Position numbers and translations under genes: made by a program. Below the pieces are notes generated by a model, which was given only the letters and a program-made list of their open reading frames with translations, was not told where the DNA came from and ran no database searches. A stretch of 64,000 nt of DNA from Hymenobacter setariae (GTDB lineage Bacteria > Bacteroidota > Bacteroidia > Cytophagales > Hymenobacteraceae). Location: the NCBI RefSeq assembly GCF_007713685.1, contig NZ_VMRJ01000003.1:496001-560000 (forward strand), given 5' to 3'. Positions 5,532 through 61,650 of this stretch are shown here, piece by piece (the first letter of the stretch is position 1; each line of letters starts with the position of its first letter).

Positions 5532-5624
5532 GTCATGTAGAGCGCAGTGAAGCATCTCGCCCGCGCCGTTACTGATGTATTAATTACTGCGCCACGCGAG
5601 ATGCTTCGCTACGCTCTGCATGAC
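5532..5624. repeat. Long intergenic palindrome between thrB and thrC (GTCATG family)
   Basis: Inverted repeat with arms of about 29 bp (5532-5560 and 5596-5624) that differ at three positions and enclose a 35-bp loop. The outer ends read GTCATG and CATGAC, and the inner arm contains GAAGCATCTCGC. It shares these ends with the copies at 57257 and, more distantly, at 32478. It lies inside the thr operon without touching either gene. Confidence 0.9.
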
Positions 5625-6590: not shown

Positions 6591-6680
6591 TGTCATTGCG
6601 AGCGCAGCGAAGCAATCGCATCAGGACGAGCCGTTCTAGTACTGGCTAGGTGCGATTGCTTCGCTGCGCTCGCAATGACA
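6591..6680. repeat. Perfect palindrome between thrA and thrB (GTCATTGCGAG family)
   Basis: Two 30-bp arms (6591-6620 and 6651-6680) are exact reverse complements and flank a 30-bp loop. The arm starts TGTCATTGCGAG and contains CAGCGAAGCAATCGC. I recall this sequence family as widely scattered in Bacteroidota and other genomes. It fills almost all of the 120 bp between thrA and the chosen thrB start. Translating it gives the well-known spurious string CERSEAI, which is not a protein. Confidence 0.95.
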
Positions 6681-10443: not shown

Positions 10444-10528
10444 TGTCATGCTGAGCTTGCAAAGCATCTTCTCCCGGCTGAGTTTCTGGCTTAGAAGTGA
10501 GAAAGTGCTTCGCAAGCTCAGCATGACA
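10444..10528. repeat. Imperfect palindrome after prfA (TGTCATGCTGAGC family)
   Basis: The left arm starts TGTCATGCTGAGC at 10444 and the right arm ends with its complement at 10528. The outer 17 bp pair exactly, while the inner part has several mismatches, so this copy looks degraded relative to those at 32478, 46353 and 61515. It could act as a prfA terminator. Confidence 0.85.
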
Positions 10529-31487: not shown

Positions 31488-32447
31488 ATGGAGCCTTTAC
31501 TTGCCGAAAACCCCAACCGGTTTGTCCTCTTTCCCATTCAGAACCCGCAGGTGTGGGAGTTCTATAAGAAGGCAGAAGCCTCGTTTTGGACGGCCGAAGA
31601 AATCGACTTGGGCCAGGACCAGAAAGACTGGAACGGCCTGAATGACAATGAGCGCCACTTCATCAAGCACGTGCTGGCCTTCTTCGCCGCCAGCGATGGC
31701 ATTGTAAATGAGAACCTGGCCATCAACTTCATGCAGGAAGTGCAGATGCCCGAGGCGCGCTGCTTCTATGGCTTCCAAATTATGATGGAGAACATTCACA
31801 GCGAAACGTATTCGCTGTTGATTGATACCTACATCAAAGACCCTAAGGAAAAAGATTATCTCTTTAACGCCCTCGAAACCGTGCCTGCTGTGCAGCGCAA
31901 GGGCCAGTGGGCGCTGACCTGGATTAACTCGGAGAATTTTGCCGAGCGCCTCATTGCCTTCGCGGCTGTGGAGGGCATTTTCTTCTCAGGCTCGTTCTGC
32001 TCCATCTTCTGGCTCAAGAAGCGCGGCCTAATGCCCGGCCTGACGTTCTCGAACGAGCTGATTTCGCGCGACGAAGGGCTGCACTGTGACTTTGCTTGCC
32101 TGCTCTACAGCTACCTAGAGAATAAATTGCCCGAGGCCCGCGTGCAGGAAATCATCCGCGACGCGGTGACGATTGAGCAGGAGTTCGTGACCGAGGCGCT
32201 GCCCGTGAGCCTCATTGGCATGAATGCTCGCACCATGAGCCAGTACATCGAGTTTGTGGCCGACCGCCTGCTCGTGTCGCTGGGCTGCGGCAAAATCTAC
32301 AACTCGACTAACCCCTTCGACTTCATGGAAATGATTTCGGTGCAGGGCAAGACGAACTTCTTCGAGAAGCGTGTGGCTGAGTATCAGAAAGCCGGTGTAA
32401 TGACCGAGCGCGCCGATAACGTGTTCTCGATGGACGAGGACTTCTAG
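31488..32447 (+). CDS. nrdB: Ribonucleotide reductase class I small subunit (beta)
   Basis: The 319-residue diiron protein holds the radical cofactor for NrdA, making deoxyribonucleotides. Ligand helices appear as [32 protein letters not shown], and [14 protein letters not shown], followed by DEGLHCDF with the Glu-His ligands. The C-terminal tail NVFSMDEDF is the class I peptide that docks on the large subunit. Length is normal. nrdA lies 1.49 kb downstream in the same direction, but the two are split by a palindrome-flanked GIY-YIG gene and two other genes. Confidence 0.97.
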
Positions 32448-32477
32448 GCCAGTCGCTTAACTCCTAGGTTTCAAAAA

Positions 32478-32560
32478 CTGTCATGCTGAGCTTGCGAAGC
32501 ATCTTCTCACATTGGGTTGTTCCGGCCGTGAGAAGATGCTTCGCAAGCTCAGCATGACAG
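32478..32560. repeat. Left palindrome of the GIY-YIG unit
   Basis: The arms 32478-32510 and 32528-32560 (CTGTCATGCTGAGCTTGCGA...) are exact reverse complements around a 17-bp loop. It starts 30 bp after nrdB and could also terminate nrdB transcription. Confidence 0.95.
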
Positions 32561-32570
32561 TTTTTTGTTT

Positions 32571-32852
32571 ATGGCTTACTACGTCTACATCACGACCAAT
32601 CCGGCTAAAATGGTGCTGTACATTGGCGTAACGAATGATTTGCCGCGCCGTATGGGGCAGCACTACGAGAATCGAGGTAGTAATGAAACCTTTGCGGGTC
32701 GATACTTCTGCTATAACCTGCTGTACTACGAACAGTTTACGGATATTAAGGCAGCTATTAGCCGGGAGAAGGAGCTGAAAGGCTGGACGCGGGCTAGGAA
32801 GGATGCACTGATTGATACCCTAAACCCAGAGCGCGAATTTCTACTTGTCTAA
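32571..32852 (+). CDS. Small GIY-YIG nuclease-family protein
   Basis: The 93-residue single-domain protein has all the GIY-YIG landmarks. YYVYI is the GIY strand, LYIGVTNDLPRR is the YIG strand followed by the catalytic Arg, and AISREKELKGW carries the metal-binding Glu. There is no DNA-binding extension, so it resembles the UPF0213/YhbQ group and not classical homing endonucleases. A TTG start two codons upstream is possible; ATG at 32571 is preferred. It is bracketed by palindromes on both sides and interrupts the nrdB-nrdA neighbourhood. The family can cut or nick DNA; the target here is unknown. Confidence 0.9.
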   Translation: MAYYVYITTNPAKMVLYIGVTNDLPRRMGQHYENRGSNETFAGRYFCYNLLYYEQFTDIKAAISREKELKGWTRARKDALIDTLNPEREFLLV

Positions 32853-32864
32853 TGCGGCTGACGC

Positions 32865-32914
32865 CCCATCACACCTGTCATGCTGAGCCTGCGAAGCATG
32901 ACAGGTGTGATGGG
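32865..32914. repeat. Right palindrome of the GIY-YIG unit
   Basis: CCCATCACACCTGTCATGCT and its exact complement flank the 10-base centre GAGCCTGCGA. The core TGTCATGCTGAGC..GCGAAGCATGACA is a shortened form of the left palindrome. Confidence 0.92.
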
Positions 32915-38499: not shown

Positions 38500-38637
38500 G
38501 ATGGCGCGGGGCTGTGCCCCGTGCCGATTATTCGCAGGCCTCTGGCCTGCGGTCGTTGTAAGTTGTGCGGGTAGCGGGTGGCCGTGGCAGGCCAGAGGCC
38601 TGCGAATAGTCGGCACGGGGCACAGCCCCGCGCCATC
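38500..38637. repeat. Left REP-like palindrome of the RAYT unit
   Basis: The 51-bp arms 38500-38550 and 38587-38637 differ at one position. The outer end GATGGCGCGGGGCTGTGCCC is itself a short hairpin, and the inner part GCAGGCCTCTGGCCTGC is another, so the whole can fold as a compound stem. Confidence 0.95.
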
Positions 38638-38686
38638 GGTCATCGGCTGAGAAAGAATGGAGAGAAATTGCGTTGACCTTTGCAGT

Positions 38687-39220
38687 ATGTCGGAACGCTA
38701 CAAAACGCACGAAGCAGGACTGTATTTCGTGACCCTAACGGTAGTAGGGTGGATAGACTTATTTACCCGCTCCGACTATGCCGAGGTGTTTTTGGAAAGT
38801 CTGCGGTACTGCATTCGACACAAGGGGCTGCGGGTGTATGCGTTCTGCGTCATGCCCAGTCACATTCACATCATTGCCGACCTGATTGAGGATGACCGTC
38901 TGCTGGCGCACGTAGTCCGCGACTTGAAAAGCTACACGGCCAAAAGGTTATATACGCTGGTCGAGACGCATCCGCAGGAGAGCCGCCGCGAATGGCTGCT
39001 GCGGCTGCTTCAGTTTTATGGCCGGCCTCACGGGCAGGCATTCAAAATCTGGCAAGAAGGCAACCACCCCATTAGCCTGAACTCGGAGGAGTGGATGCGC
39101 CAGAAGCGTGATTATATTCACCAAAACCCTGTGACAGCCCGCCTGGTGGATGAAGCGCACCACTACCCGTTCAGCAGCGCATTTCCCGACTGCGGCGTGC
39201 CACTCAGCGCTTTTCTATAA
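38687..39220 (+). CDS. REP-associated tyrosine transposase (Y1/IS200-like, RAYT)
   Basis: The 177-residue protein from MSERYKTHEAG carries the HUH nuclease motif as HIH in YAFCVMPSHIHIIAD, and the catalytic Tyr in KRDYIHQNPVTARLV near the C-terminus, both typical of the RAYT (TnpA-REP) branch. A start ten codons earlier at 38657 is possible. The gene is flanked by palindromes that such enzymes are known to recognise and cut as single strands. The reading frame is intact, so it may be active or domesticated. Confidence 0.93.
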   Translation: MSERYKTHEAGLYFVTLTVVGWIDLFTRSDYAEVFLESLRYCIRHKGLRVYAFCVMPSHIHIIADLIEDDRLLAHVVRDLKSYTAKRLYTLVETHPQESRREWLLRLLQFYGRPHGQAFKIWQEGNHPISLNSEEWMRQKRDYIHQNPVTARLVDEAHHYPFSSAFPDCGVPLSAFL

Positions 39221-39241
39221 CGGCAATGACCTTGATGCGCC

Positions 39242-39270
39242 GATGGCGCGGGGCTGTGCCCCGTGCCATC
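39242..39270. repeat. Right REP-like palindrome of the RAYT unit
   Basis: GATGGCGCGGGGCTGTGCCCC...GCCATC is the outer hairpin of the left palindrome, and lies 21 bp after the transposase stop. Confidence 0.9.
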
Positions 39271-46352: not shown

Positions 46353-46447
46353 AGAAATGTCATGCTGAGCTTGCGAAGCATCTTATCACGTCATGGGTAG
46401 TTAACCCAACGTGATAAGATGCTTCGCAAGCTCAGCATGACATTTCT
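46353..46447. repeat. Perfect 39-bp-arm palindrome (TGTCATGCTGAGC family)
   Basis: The arms 46353-46391 and 46409-46447 are exact reverse complements with a 17-base loop that itself forms TGGGT..ACCCA. It fills the gap between the convergent AKR and VOC genes. The core is the same as the palindrome before the GIY-YIG gene at 32478. Confidence 0.95.
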
Positions 46448-51064: not shown

Positions 51065-51189
51065 GTAGCTTGGACTCTGCGAGTCCGAGGGCGAGCGCAG
51101 CGAGCATCCCGGGTCTAGGTACGCTACTCAATAGCATCTAACGTCGATGCTCGCTACGCTCGCTCTCGGACTCGCAGAGTCCAAGCTAC
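51065..51189. repeat. Long palindrome between the amidohydrolase and hexosaminidase genes
   Basis: The 44-bp arms 51065-51108 and 51146-51189 differ at two positions (GTAGCTTGGACTCTGCGAGT...). It contains GCGAGCGCAGCGAGCATC, related in wording to the GCGAAGCATC palindromes but with its own outer ends. It fills a convergent 139-bp gap. Confidence 0.93.
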
Positions 51190-53814: not shown

Positions 53815-53815
53815 G

Positions 53816-53944
53816 GCATTTACCCCACCCCCGGCCCCTCCCCTCCGGGAGAGGGGAGCCGACCGCGAGCAAACGTAAGCGAATGCTATTAAGTCGTCAG
53901 GCTCCCCTCTCCCGGAGGGGAGGGGCCGGGGGTGGGGTAAATGC
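53816..53944. repeat. Perfect 45-bp-arm palindrome filling a convergent gap
   Basis: The arms 53816-53860 and 53900-53944 (GCATTTACCCCACCCCCGGC...) are exact reverse complements. It starts two bases after one stop codon (53814) and ends two bases before the other (53946). A second copy of the family lies at 60508. Confidence 0.97.
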
Positions 53945-53945
53945 C

Positions 53946-57256: not shown

Positions 57257-57351
57257 TGTCATGCTGAACGCCAGTGAAGCATCTCGCTCGGGTCGTTAGG
57301 ATAGTACTCCAACGATGCGAGCGAGATGCTTCACTGGCGTTCAGCATGACA
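57257..57351. repeat. Perfect 34-bp-arm palindrome (TGTCATGCTGAACG variant)
   Basis: The arms 57257-57290 and 57318-57351 are exact reverse complements around a 27-base loop. The outer end matches the 32478 family (TGTCATGCTGA) and the inner end (GAAGCATCTCGC) matches the 5532 copy, so it links the two subgroups. Confidence 0.95.
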
Positions 57352-60507: not shown

Positions 60508-60623
60508 GACCCCACCCCCAGCCCCTCCCCTCCGGGAGAGGGGAGCCTGACGACTACTAGCGTTACCAAACGTTCGAGTAGGTCGGCTCCCCTCTCCCGG
60601 AGGGGAGGGGCTGGAGGTGGGGT
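60508..60623. repeat. Long palindrome after the TonB receptor (CCCCTCCCCTCC family)
   Basis: The 40-bp arms 60508-60547 and 60584-60623 differ at one position (GACCCCACCCCCAGCCCCTC...). The loop is similar to that of the 53816 copy read in reverse, so the two are homologous elements inserted in opposite orientation. It may terminate the receptor gene. Confidence 0.93.
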
Positions 60624-60725
60624 CTTTGCGTCCGGGCTTACTGCTGCGCGAAACCTAGGGCGGGGTAGGGTTGTATCTTCAGGTATATAGCGGTAGCCCC
60701 TGGGTACTGCTGCCTTCCTGTTTTT

Positions 60726-61496: not shown

Positions 61497-61514
61497 GAAG
61501 TGAATTACTAAAAT

Positions 61515-61602
61515 CATCTGTCATGCTGAGCTTGCGAAGCATCTTCTCACGCTAGGTCAACCCGACGTGAGAAGATGCTTCGCAAGCTCAGCATGACAGA
61601 TG
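61515..61602. repeat. Perfect 37-bp-arm palindrome inside the mod operon
   Basis: The arms 61515-61551 and 61566-61602 are exact reverse complements around a 14-base loop. The arm core CTGTCATGCTGAGCTTGCGAAGCATCTTCTCAC is the same as that before the GIY-YIG gene. It separates modA from modB by 154 bp. Confidence 0.96.
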
Positions 61603-61650
61603 AGGATGACTGATTTATAGTCGATAATTTCCAACATATACCTTCCCAAA

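Follow-up and report, generated by a model that had tools for sequence, protein, structure and literature searches.

A small GIY-YIG nuclease gene nested among TGTC-tagged REP repeats in Hymenobacter is a candidate enzyme for the CGTC REP superfamily

The window analysed here, a stretch of 64,000 nucleotides of Hymenobacter setariae DNA, contains a small GIY-YIG nuclease gene set between two palindromes downstream of nrdB (Table 1). A preliminary description of this DNA had pointed out the arrangement, and we confirm it: a long palindrome lies 5' of the gene, and a shorter one that shares its core lies 3'. The long palindrome is perfect, as had been described, with arms of 38 bp that end 5 bp short of the ATG in place of the 33-bp arms and 10-bp gap first given; the downstream palindrome spans 50 bp. 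Gene-less relatives of the long palindrome were recovered at all three sites reported for them. The first description had overlooked that the downstream palindrome is itself a REP monomer, that the window also holds one copy of a second REP family (TGC), and that the other small GIY-YIG gene of the genome sits within a dimer of this second family.

Table 1. Features of the GIY-YIG locus and related palindromes, in positions of the window.
Feature	Position	Strand	Basis or remark
Small GIY-YIG nuclease gene, 93 aa	32571..32852	+	ORF and Pfam PF01541, E=1.4e-16
REP dimer, head-to-head, TGTC-tagged, stem family GCT	32473..32565	.	Within A-tract/T-tract palindrome; directly 5' of GIY-YIG gene
REP monomer, same core as upstream dimer	32865..32914	.	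In palindrome CCCATCACACC/GGTGTGATGGG; 12 bp past GIY-YIG stop
nrdB 3' end	32145..32447	+	Insertion-site anchor for element presence/absence
Bare REP dimer, family GCT	46353..46447	.	Orthologous dimer in relative G021
Bare REP dimer, family GCT	61514..61603	.	Degenerate copy at G021 orthologous site
Bare REP dimer, family GCT, imperfect	10444..10528	.	Degenerate copy at G021 orthologous site
Bare REP dimer, second family TGC	6591..6680	.	Family encloses other small GIY-YIG gene (L001); also in G021
Related variant palindrome (TGTCATGCTGAACGCCAGTGAAGCATC)	57257..57351	.	Also in G021
Related variant palindrome (GTCATGTAGAGCGCAGTGAAGCATC)	5532..5624	.	None at G021 orthologous site

Other palindromes share the window. 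At 38500-39270 we find the RAYT arrangement first described, a RAYT-type Y1 transposase gene (Pfam Y1_Tnp) flanked by a long and a short palindrome, and these palindromes are unrelated in sequence to the TGTC REPs. A separate dispersed palindrome family (CCCACCCCCRGCCCCTCCCCTCCGGGAGAGGGGAG) is present at 53815-53945 and 60508-60624. In the relative G021, one member of this family occupies the site of a TGTC REP dimer of our genome (L299), and another lies 3' of nrdB. At 51065-51189 the window has a different palindrome where G021 has a TGC-family REP dimer; a GAGCGCAGCGA core is common to both, and the two are possibly one degenerate lineage.

The predicted protein has a sole Pfam domain, PF01541 GIY-YIG, at residues 3-76 of 93, and there is no room in it for a separate DNA-binding module. 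Of 194 aligned sequences, which include duplicates, 97-100% retain the active-site residues Y6, Y17, R27, H31, E66 and N85, and dN/dS has a median of 0.074 over 11 pairs, with dS near saturation. An AlphaFold model (pLDDT 97) finds its best structural match in UPF0213 (1zg2) and the next in Slx1, with E <0.001 for 1zg2 only. NCBIfam and PADLOC returned no match, and PHROGs returned a weak match to homing endonucleases. Judged by its residues and modelled fold, the protein belongs to the GIY-YIG nuclease superfamily; DNA cleavage is a putative activity.

The long palindrome consists of two arms in opposite orientation with their tags outward, each arm a small imperfect hairpin in which TGTC is followed by AT plus a triplet, tandem GA/GA and a short loop, after which comes the triplet's complement. 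Across 13 hand-picked arms from nine genera, the GTC of the tag is invariant (tag YGTC) and the stem starts with AT in 11, those of Sphingobium and Novosphingobium differing. The stem triplet covaries. Among 291 REP halves collected without requiring complementarity, 239 are complementary, against a mean of 98 and a maximum of 120 under shuffled pairing, although two local families weigh heavily in this set through the inclusion of deliberately fetched copies from our own genome. Nine distinct complementary triplets occur in it, and 38 of the 52 non-complementary halves are one variant (GCA with AGCAT). The H. setariae genome (6.10 Mb, 14 contigs) holds 63+66 half-arms of the GCT family at up to one mismatch and 27+29 of the TGC family at up to two; the reversed-pattern control gave 0 for each. 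Head-to-head dimers predominate in the TGC family, in which 48 of 56 half-arms form 24 outward-tag pairs, one holding a GIY-YIG gene; the GCT family was listed in part. A strict exact-stem REP finder missed a CCT family, and a relaxed version was then used.

These palindromes fit a REP superfamily that has already been published, the CGTC/TGTC REPs. In the survey of Di Nocera, De Gregorio and Rocco (2013, PMC3733652), CGTC-tagged REPs often have TGTC as their tag, start their stem with AT and are mostly head-to-head dimers. They occur in five phyla, mostly in alpha-Proteobacteria and also in Bacteroidetes, with Neisseria dRS3 as one example; S. meliloti, A. lipoferum, N. aromaticivorans and the Neisseriae are named hosts (PMC3733652). 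Published stems measure 8-9 bp with a loop of 4-5 nt (PMC3733652). Three proteobacterial arms that we folded have such a stem and loop and are stable alone (z -4 to -5), whereas five Bacteroidota arms reach at most 5 contiguous pairs and, folded singly, were no more stable than shuffles (z -0.8 to 0.6). Stem length is therefore a caveat in placing the Bacteroidota repeats with the CGTC REPs. The survey describes CGTC repeats as lacking associated transposase genes and leaves the dedicated transposase, apparently absent, to future work (PMC3733652).

The preliminary description had suggested testing whether GIY-YIG genes and palindromes adjoin in excess of expectation, and comparison with control ORFs shows that they do. 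Among distinct relatives with 150 bp on both sides, an inverted repeat encloses 59 of 101 GIY-YIG genes, whereas the remaining ORFs of these loci give 4 of 673; for small control ORFs (at most 130 aa) the count is 1 of 145. On named genome contigs of Bacteroidota, a REP motif lies within 200 bp of the gene at 77 of 79 loci and of 123 of 797 control ORFs, and REPs with outward tags enclose 59 of the 79 genes and 2 of the 797 controls. This set holds the best 80 of at least 571 relatives, 79 of them usable, and hence close relatives. Its genera other than Hymenobacter give 53/53 for the motif and 38/53 for enclosure, with controls at 68/500 and 0/500. In the Hymenobacter genome set, for which 110 of 111 genes were used, the motif is found at 95 genes and enclosure at 58 (controls 11/37 and 0/37). 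A draw across the phylum recovered the gene from 178 of 296 genomes, representing 95 of 139 genera; 27 of its 28 new loci were usable, with the motif at 21 and enclosure at 13 (controls 3/13 and 0/13), and only 3 of the 28 passed a strict ungapped inverted-repeat test. The layout first described, palindrome, gene, palindrome, holds for the window, and the commoner form is a gene enclosed by REP arms with their tags outward. We regard the association of gene and REPs as near certain in the lineages sampled.

Some Bacteroidota genomes have 8-12 matches to the window protein (G153, G191, G247, G334 and G392), and in G191 two equal-scoring matches lie side by side. Decaying GIY-YIG copies with in-frame stops, still beside REPs, were seen in G033 (L219/L138) and G042 (L093).

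The arrangement extends beyond Bacteroidota. A tblastn search found relatives in 33 plasmid-collection records, of which 17 were fetched; most are alphaproteobacterial and one is from Spirosoma (Bacteroidota). Inverted repeats enclose the gene at 11 of the 17 loci, ten alphaproteobacterial and one from Neisseria, and the other six fail the test. The hosts are Rhizobium, S. meliloti, Neorhizobium, Shinella (three records), Sphingobium (two records, one with a broken frame), Novosphingobium, Azospirillum and Neisseria; two Shinella and two Sphingobium records are orthologous pairs, which leaves nine independent cases. With the end of one read-through frame set by hand, 12 of the 17 genes pass. 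Control ORFs of these loci pass in 3 of 67 cases, all in a Photobacterium locus. The repeats around the 11 enclosed genes are mostly clear CGTC REPs, and arms such as CGTC-ATCCCAGGG-CTTGA-CCCTGGGAT-CCA match the published definition. Phage records gave no match to the window protein at E 1e-3. In two alphaproteobacterial orders the gene lies between sufB and sufC (L131, Azospirillum; L133, Shinella PSBB067, judged from its flanks), a shared position that reflects either recurrent insertion or old inheritance.

Gene clade and repeat type are matched. On a tree of 90 Hymenobacter genes (of 111, those with no REP label, an internal stop or odd length being left out), the REP stem triplet needs 13 changes, compared with a mean of 41.5 in shuffles. 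The nearest homologue in another genome has the same triplet in 74 of 90 cases, same-genome paralogues in 5 of 31 and random cross-genome pairs in 1238 of 3974. Because nearest homologues share the triplet and paralogues within a genome rarely do, the repeat type follows the gene and not the genome. H. setariae itself is an instance: the window gene is accompanied by the GCT family, and its second small GIY-YIG gene (C11:178972-179223) lies inside a TGC-family dimer. The likeness to RAYT elements drawn in the preliminary description extends to the matching of each gene clade with its own type of palindrome, a cognate pairing that we consider near certain in the lineages sampled.

Genes and repeats also come and go at orthologous sites. 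We located nrdB in 99 of 101 Hymenobacter genomes, with a GIY-YIG gene just downstream in at least 13 (eight on the same strand, five convergent); of 20 nrdB loci fetched, four have the gene, one of these broken, and one was too short to judge. In G021 the last 100 NrdB residues are identical and the same gene follows downstream, yet a terminator-like palindrome and another repeat type occupy the interval; this site has no TGTC REP, and G021 lacks the small GIY-YIG gene. Azospirillum lipoferum 4B carries a REP dimer, the gene and a second REP dimer between sufB and sufC, where both gene and REPs are absent from four other Azospirillum records fetched. At eight sites of REP dimers in our own genome, chosen for strong flanking palindromes and thus not a random sample of turnover rate, the counterparts in G021 are two dimers of the same family, one monomer and one repeat of another kind, and the remaining four sites lack such a REP. 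Presence/absence variation, as anticipated earlier, is therefore observed at nrdB, at sufB-sufC and among these eight sites. Within the window, 5 of 8 REP-type palindromes have a counterpart in G021, two of the five degenerate, which indicates that many REPs are older than that split. Junctions at empty sites, which the preliminary description had suggested examining, are blurred by the divergence of G021, the closest relative examined, whose matching blocks are 86-95% identical; at one site (L301) the flanks align almost base for base, and a dimer in our genome stands against a monomer in G021 within one and the same flanking palindrome.

The immediate surroundings of the dimers bear on how they are joined to their sites. 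No target-site duplication was found among 42 own-genome dimers (37 from 40 fetched copies plus 5 in the window), with counts of 1, 0 and 1 at k=4, 5 and 6. In these 42 dimers the bases that directly border the two tags pair with one another in sequence but are specific to each copy, with a mean uninterrupted run of 4.4 bp versus 0.8 in mismatched pairs; they are often an A-tract on the left and a T-tract on the right, as in terminators. Such flanking palindromes fit joining at hairpin apices. Alternatively, the pattern could stem from repair by template switching or from selection for a terminator role. Some flanking palindromes of the fetched copies (L276-L315) and of those in the window are perfect over 10-14 bp, as if the REPs sat at the apex of loop-less terminators.

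A few gene-less units retain traces of a gene-bearing form. The bare TGC dimer L285 has subterminal stretches on both sides in common with the gene-bearing L295, and L283 does so on one side. S. meliloti Ak57 has, beside a complete copy, a truncated gene of which the 3' part remains between REPs. On these examples, gene-less dimers look like deletion forms, in a relation resembling that of MITEs to their parent.

We interpret the locus as part of a REP system that probably belongs to the CGTC/TGTC superfamily and has a stand-alone GIY-YIG nuclease as its dedicated enzyme. The gene is a strong candidate for the missing enzyme of the CGTC REPs. That the nuclease mobilises or cuts the palindromes had been proposed at the outset; adjacency, pairing and turnover now speak for it, and from them we infer that mobilisation is likely. 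In the model we favour, the nuclease would recognise REPs of its own family in hairpin or cruciform form, with their YGTC foot and AT-NNN stem, in the way that Slx1, which it resembles in structure, recognises branched DNA. Cutting at the REP would free a REP-spacer-REP unit or provoke its copying, and the unit would be joined at hairpin-forming intergenic sites such as terminators, without target-site duplication. A unit with the gene in its spacer would be the autonomous form, and short-spacer units would be non-autonomous deletion forms mobilised in trans. More broadly, we place just on the probable side of even the claim that this is a new class of bacterial mobile DNA, present in several phyla, in which a stand-alone GIY-YIG nuclease that cuts hairpins or cruciforms takes the place of an HUH or DDE transposase in mobilising REPs, insertion occurs at hairpin apices without target duplication, and the same machinery serves the CGTC REPs including Neisseria dRS3.

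Copy number argues against this model. The preliminary description had suggested testing whether REPs and genes vary together in number, and REP counts do not track the presence of the gene: a match to the window protein at E 1e-3 is missing from 16 of 101 Hymenobacter genomes, and the median number of REPs, counted with one pattern, is 65 in these 16 and 73 in the others (p=0.74), reaching 438 in one. A search for the GIY-YIG family in the 16 found long proteins in all, plus two further frames, one of 225 aa (G093) and one of 174 aa that is matched in part (G058). Palindrome-rich Hymenobacter genomes without a gene of this type therefore exist, an observation that the preliminary description had named as one that would refute its proposal. 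Since REP counts are independent of the gene, we have dropped copy number as support and count it against the model. REPs may outlive their enzyme; REPtrons are reported to have been deleted in many E. coli strains (PMC3733652). We also count against the model the absence of target-site duplications, the G021 counterparts of five window palindromes, the low stability of single Bacteroidota arms, and the loci that fail the inverted-repeat tests in the phylum-wide draw and in the plasmid collection.

Different explanations have to be weighed against mobilisation by the nuclease. GIY-YIG enzymes are classic homing nucleases, and the gene could be a selfish homing endonuclease that targets REP dimers, in which case bare dimers would be unoccupied targets and the REPs would be made by other means. 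The frequent position of the gene between two REP arms would follow, as would the single REP hairpin that Sinorhizobium K101 carries at the site of the REP-gene-REP unit of Ak57, and the excess of REPs over genes by tens to one and the weak PHROGs match point the same way. We nevertheless judge homing unlikely. Gene and REPs come and go together at Azospirillum sufB-sufC and at the G021 nrdB site, gene-bearing Hymenobacter genomes hold 1-6 copies of a gene that has not spread through their hundreds of REPs, the protein is a catalytic domain alone with no target-binding module, and phage records are without a match at the threshold given above.

It is more doubtful still that the protein has been domesticated to cut or trim the cruciforms of REPs, or to exploit these for regulation or termination, and co-evolves with the REPs without mobilising them. 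Such a role leaves unexplained why REPs physically enclose the gene, why one genome has several paralogues with different REP types, and why gene and REPs are present or absent jointly at orthologous sites, although it would sit well with the nearest folds (UPF0213 and the branched-DNA nuclease Slx1), with purifying selection on the gene, with REP numbers that do not depend on it and with the location of REPs within terminator-like palindromes.

We disfavour, as very improbable, a model in which Y1 transposases mobilise the TGTC REPs as well and the GIY-YIG gene is a passenger. Our genome does have three Y1-transposase loci, but the exact-stem finder detected no GCT- or TGC-type REPs at them, and the survey states that tyrosine transposase genes of CGTC-positive species are not flanked by CGTC sequences (PMC3733652). 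Finally, the notion that small genes and REPs merely gather in the same intergenic spaces, which the REP motifs near many control ORFs might suggest, is refuted by the enclosure counts and the small-ORF control and retains practically no probability.

The favoured reading, in which the nuclease mobilises the REPs, has partial parallels among known systems. GIY-YIG homing endonucleases of the I-TevI type have the same catalytic domain and residue set; here, however, we found no DNA-binding module, intron or target gene, and the repeats enclose the gene. As to insertion into a pre-existing recognition site, the empty Azospirillum records and the G021 nrdB site hold no such REP, and K101 retains one. 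The uncharacterised small GIY-YIG proteins of the UPF0213/YhbQ type (PDB 1zg2) are alike in fold and similar in size, with a weak sequence match (E 0.022). MITEs and their parent insertion sequences resemble our units in having inverted-repeat ends, a gene-bearing parent, short gene-less derivatives and orthologous presence/absence, and differ in that no DDE or HUH transposase lies in the unit described here and no target-site duplication accompanies it. In Penelope-like retroelements a GIY-YIG nuclease is likewise reported to serve a mobile element; those elements are eukaryotic and have a reverse transcriptase, of which there is none here. Slx1 (from PDB titles) and ANKLE1 (PMC10287932) share the GIY-YIG fold and act on branched or cruciform DNA, and are, by contrast, host repair enzymes with a partner or extra domains and are not mobile.

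REP/RAYT systems (REPtrons, REPINs) also consist of dispersed hairpin repeats and a low-copy enzyme gene flanked by repeats of a clade-matched type. Theirs is an HUH/Y1 tyrosine transposase with a GTAG tag, whereas ours is a GIY-YIG nuclease, of unrelated chemistry, with a YGTC tag; our system is therefore not a member of the REP/RAYT family, although it resembles REP/RAYT in its working. Among the papers listed by our searches, made in a collection without preprints and most subscription journals, none was seen to pair GIY-YIG genes with REPs. Nearest are the CGTC-tagged REPs themselves, which agree with ours in YGTC tag, AT-starting stem, head-to-head dimers, intergenic location and hosts (Bacteroidetes, alpha-Proteobacteria, and Neisseria with dRS3), and differ in stems of 8-9 bp as against 5 bp plus tandem GA/GA in Bacteroidota and in having been published without a transposase gene, where we find a GIY-YIG gene associated (PMC3733652). 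The question of a CGTC-REP enzyme, left over from the 2013 survey (PMC3733652), becomes testable with a clade-matched, nested GIY-YIG gene. Should the enzyme prove to move REPs, it would add a further enzyme class for DNA transposition, here of 93 residues, and genes now annotated merely as 'GIY-YIG nuclease family protein' would acquire a function.
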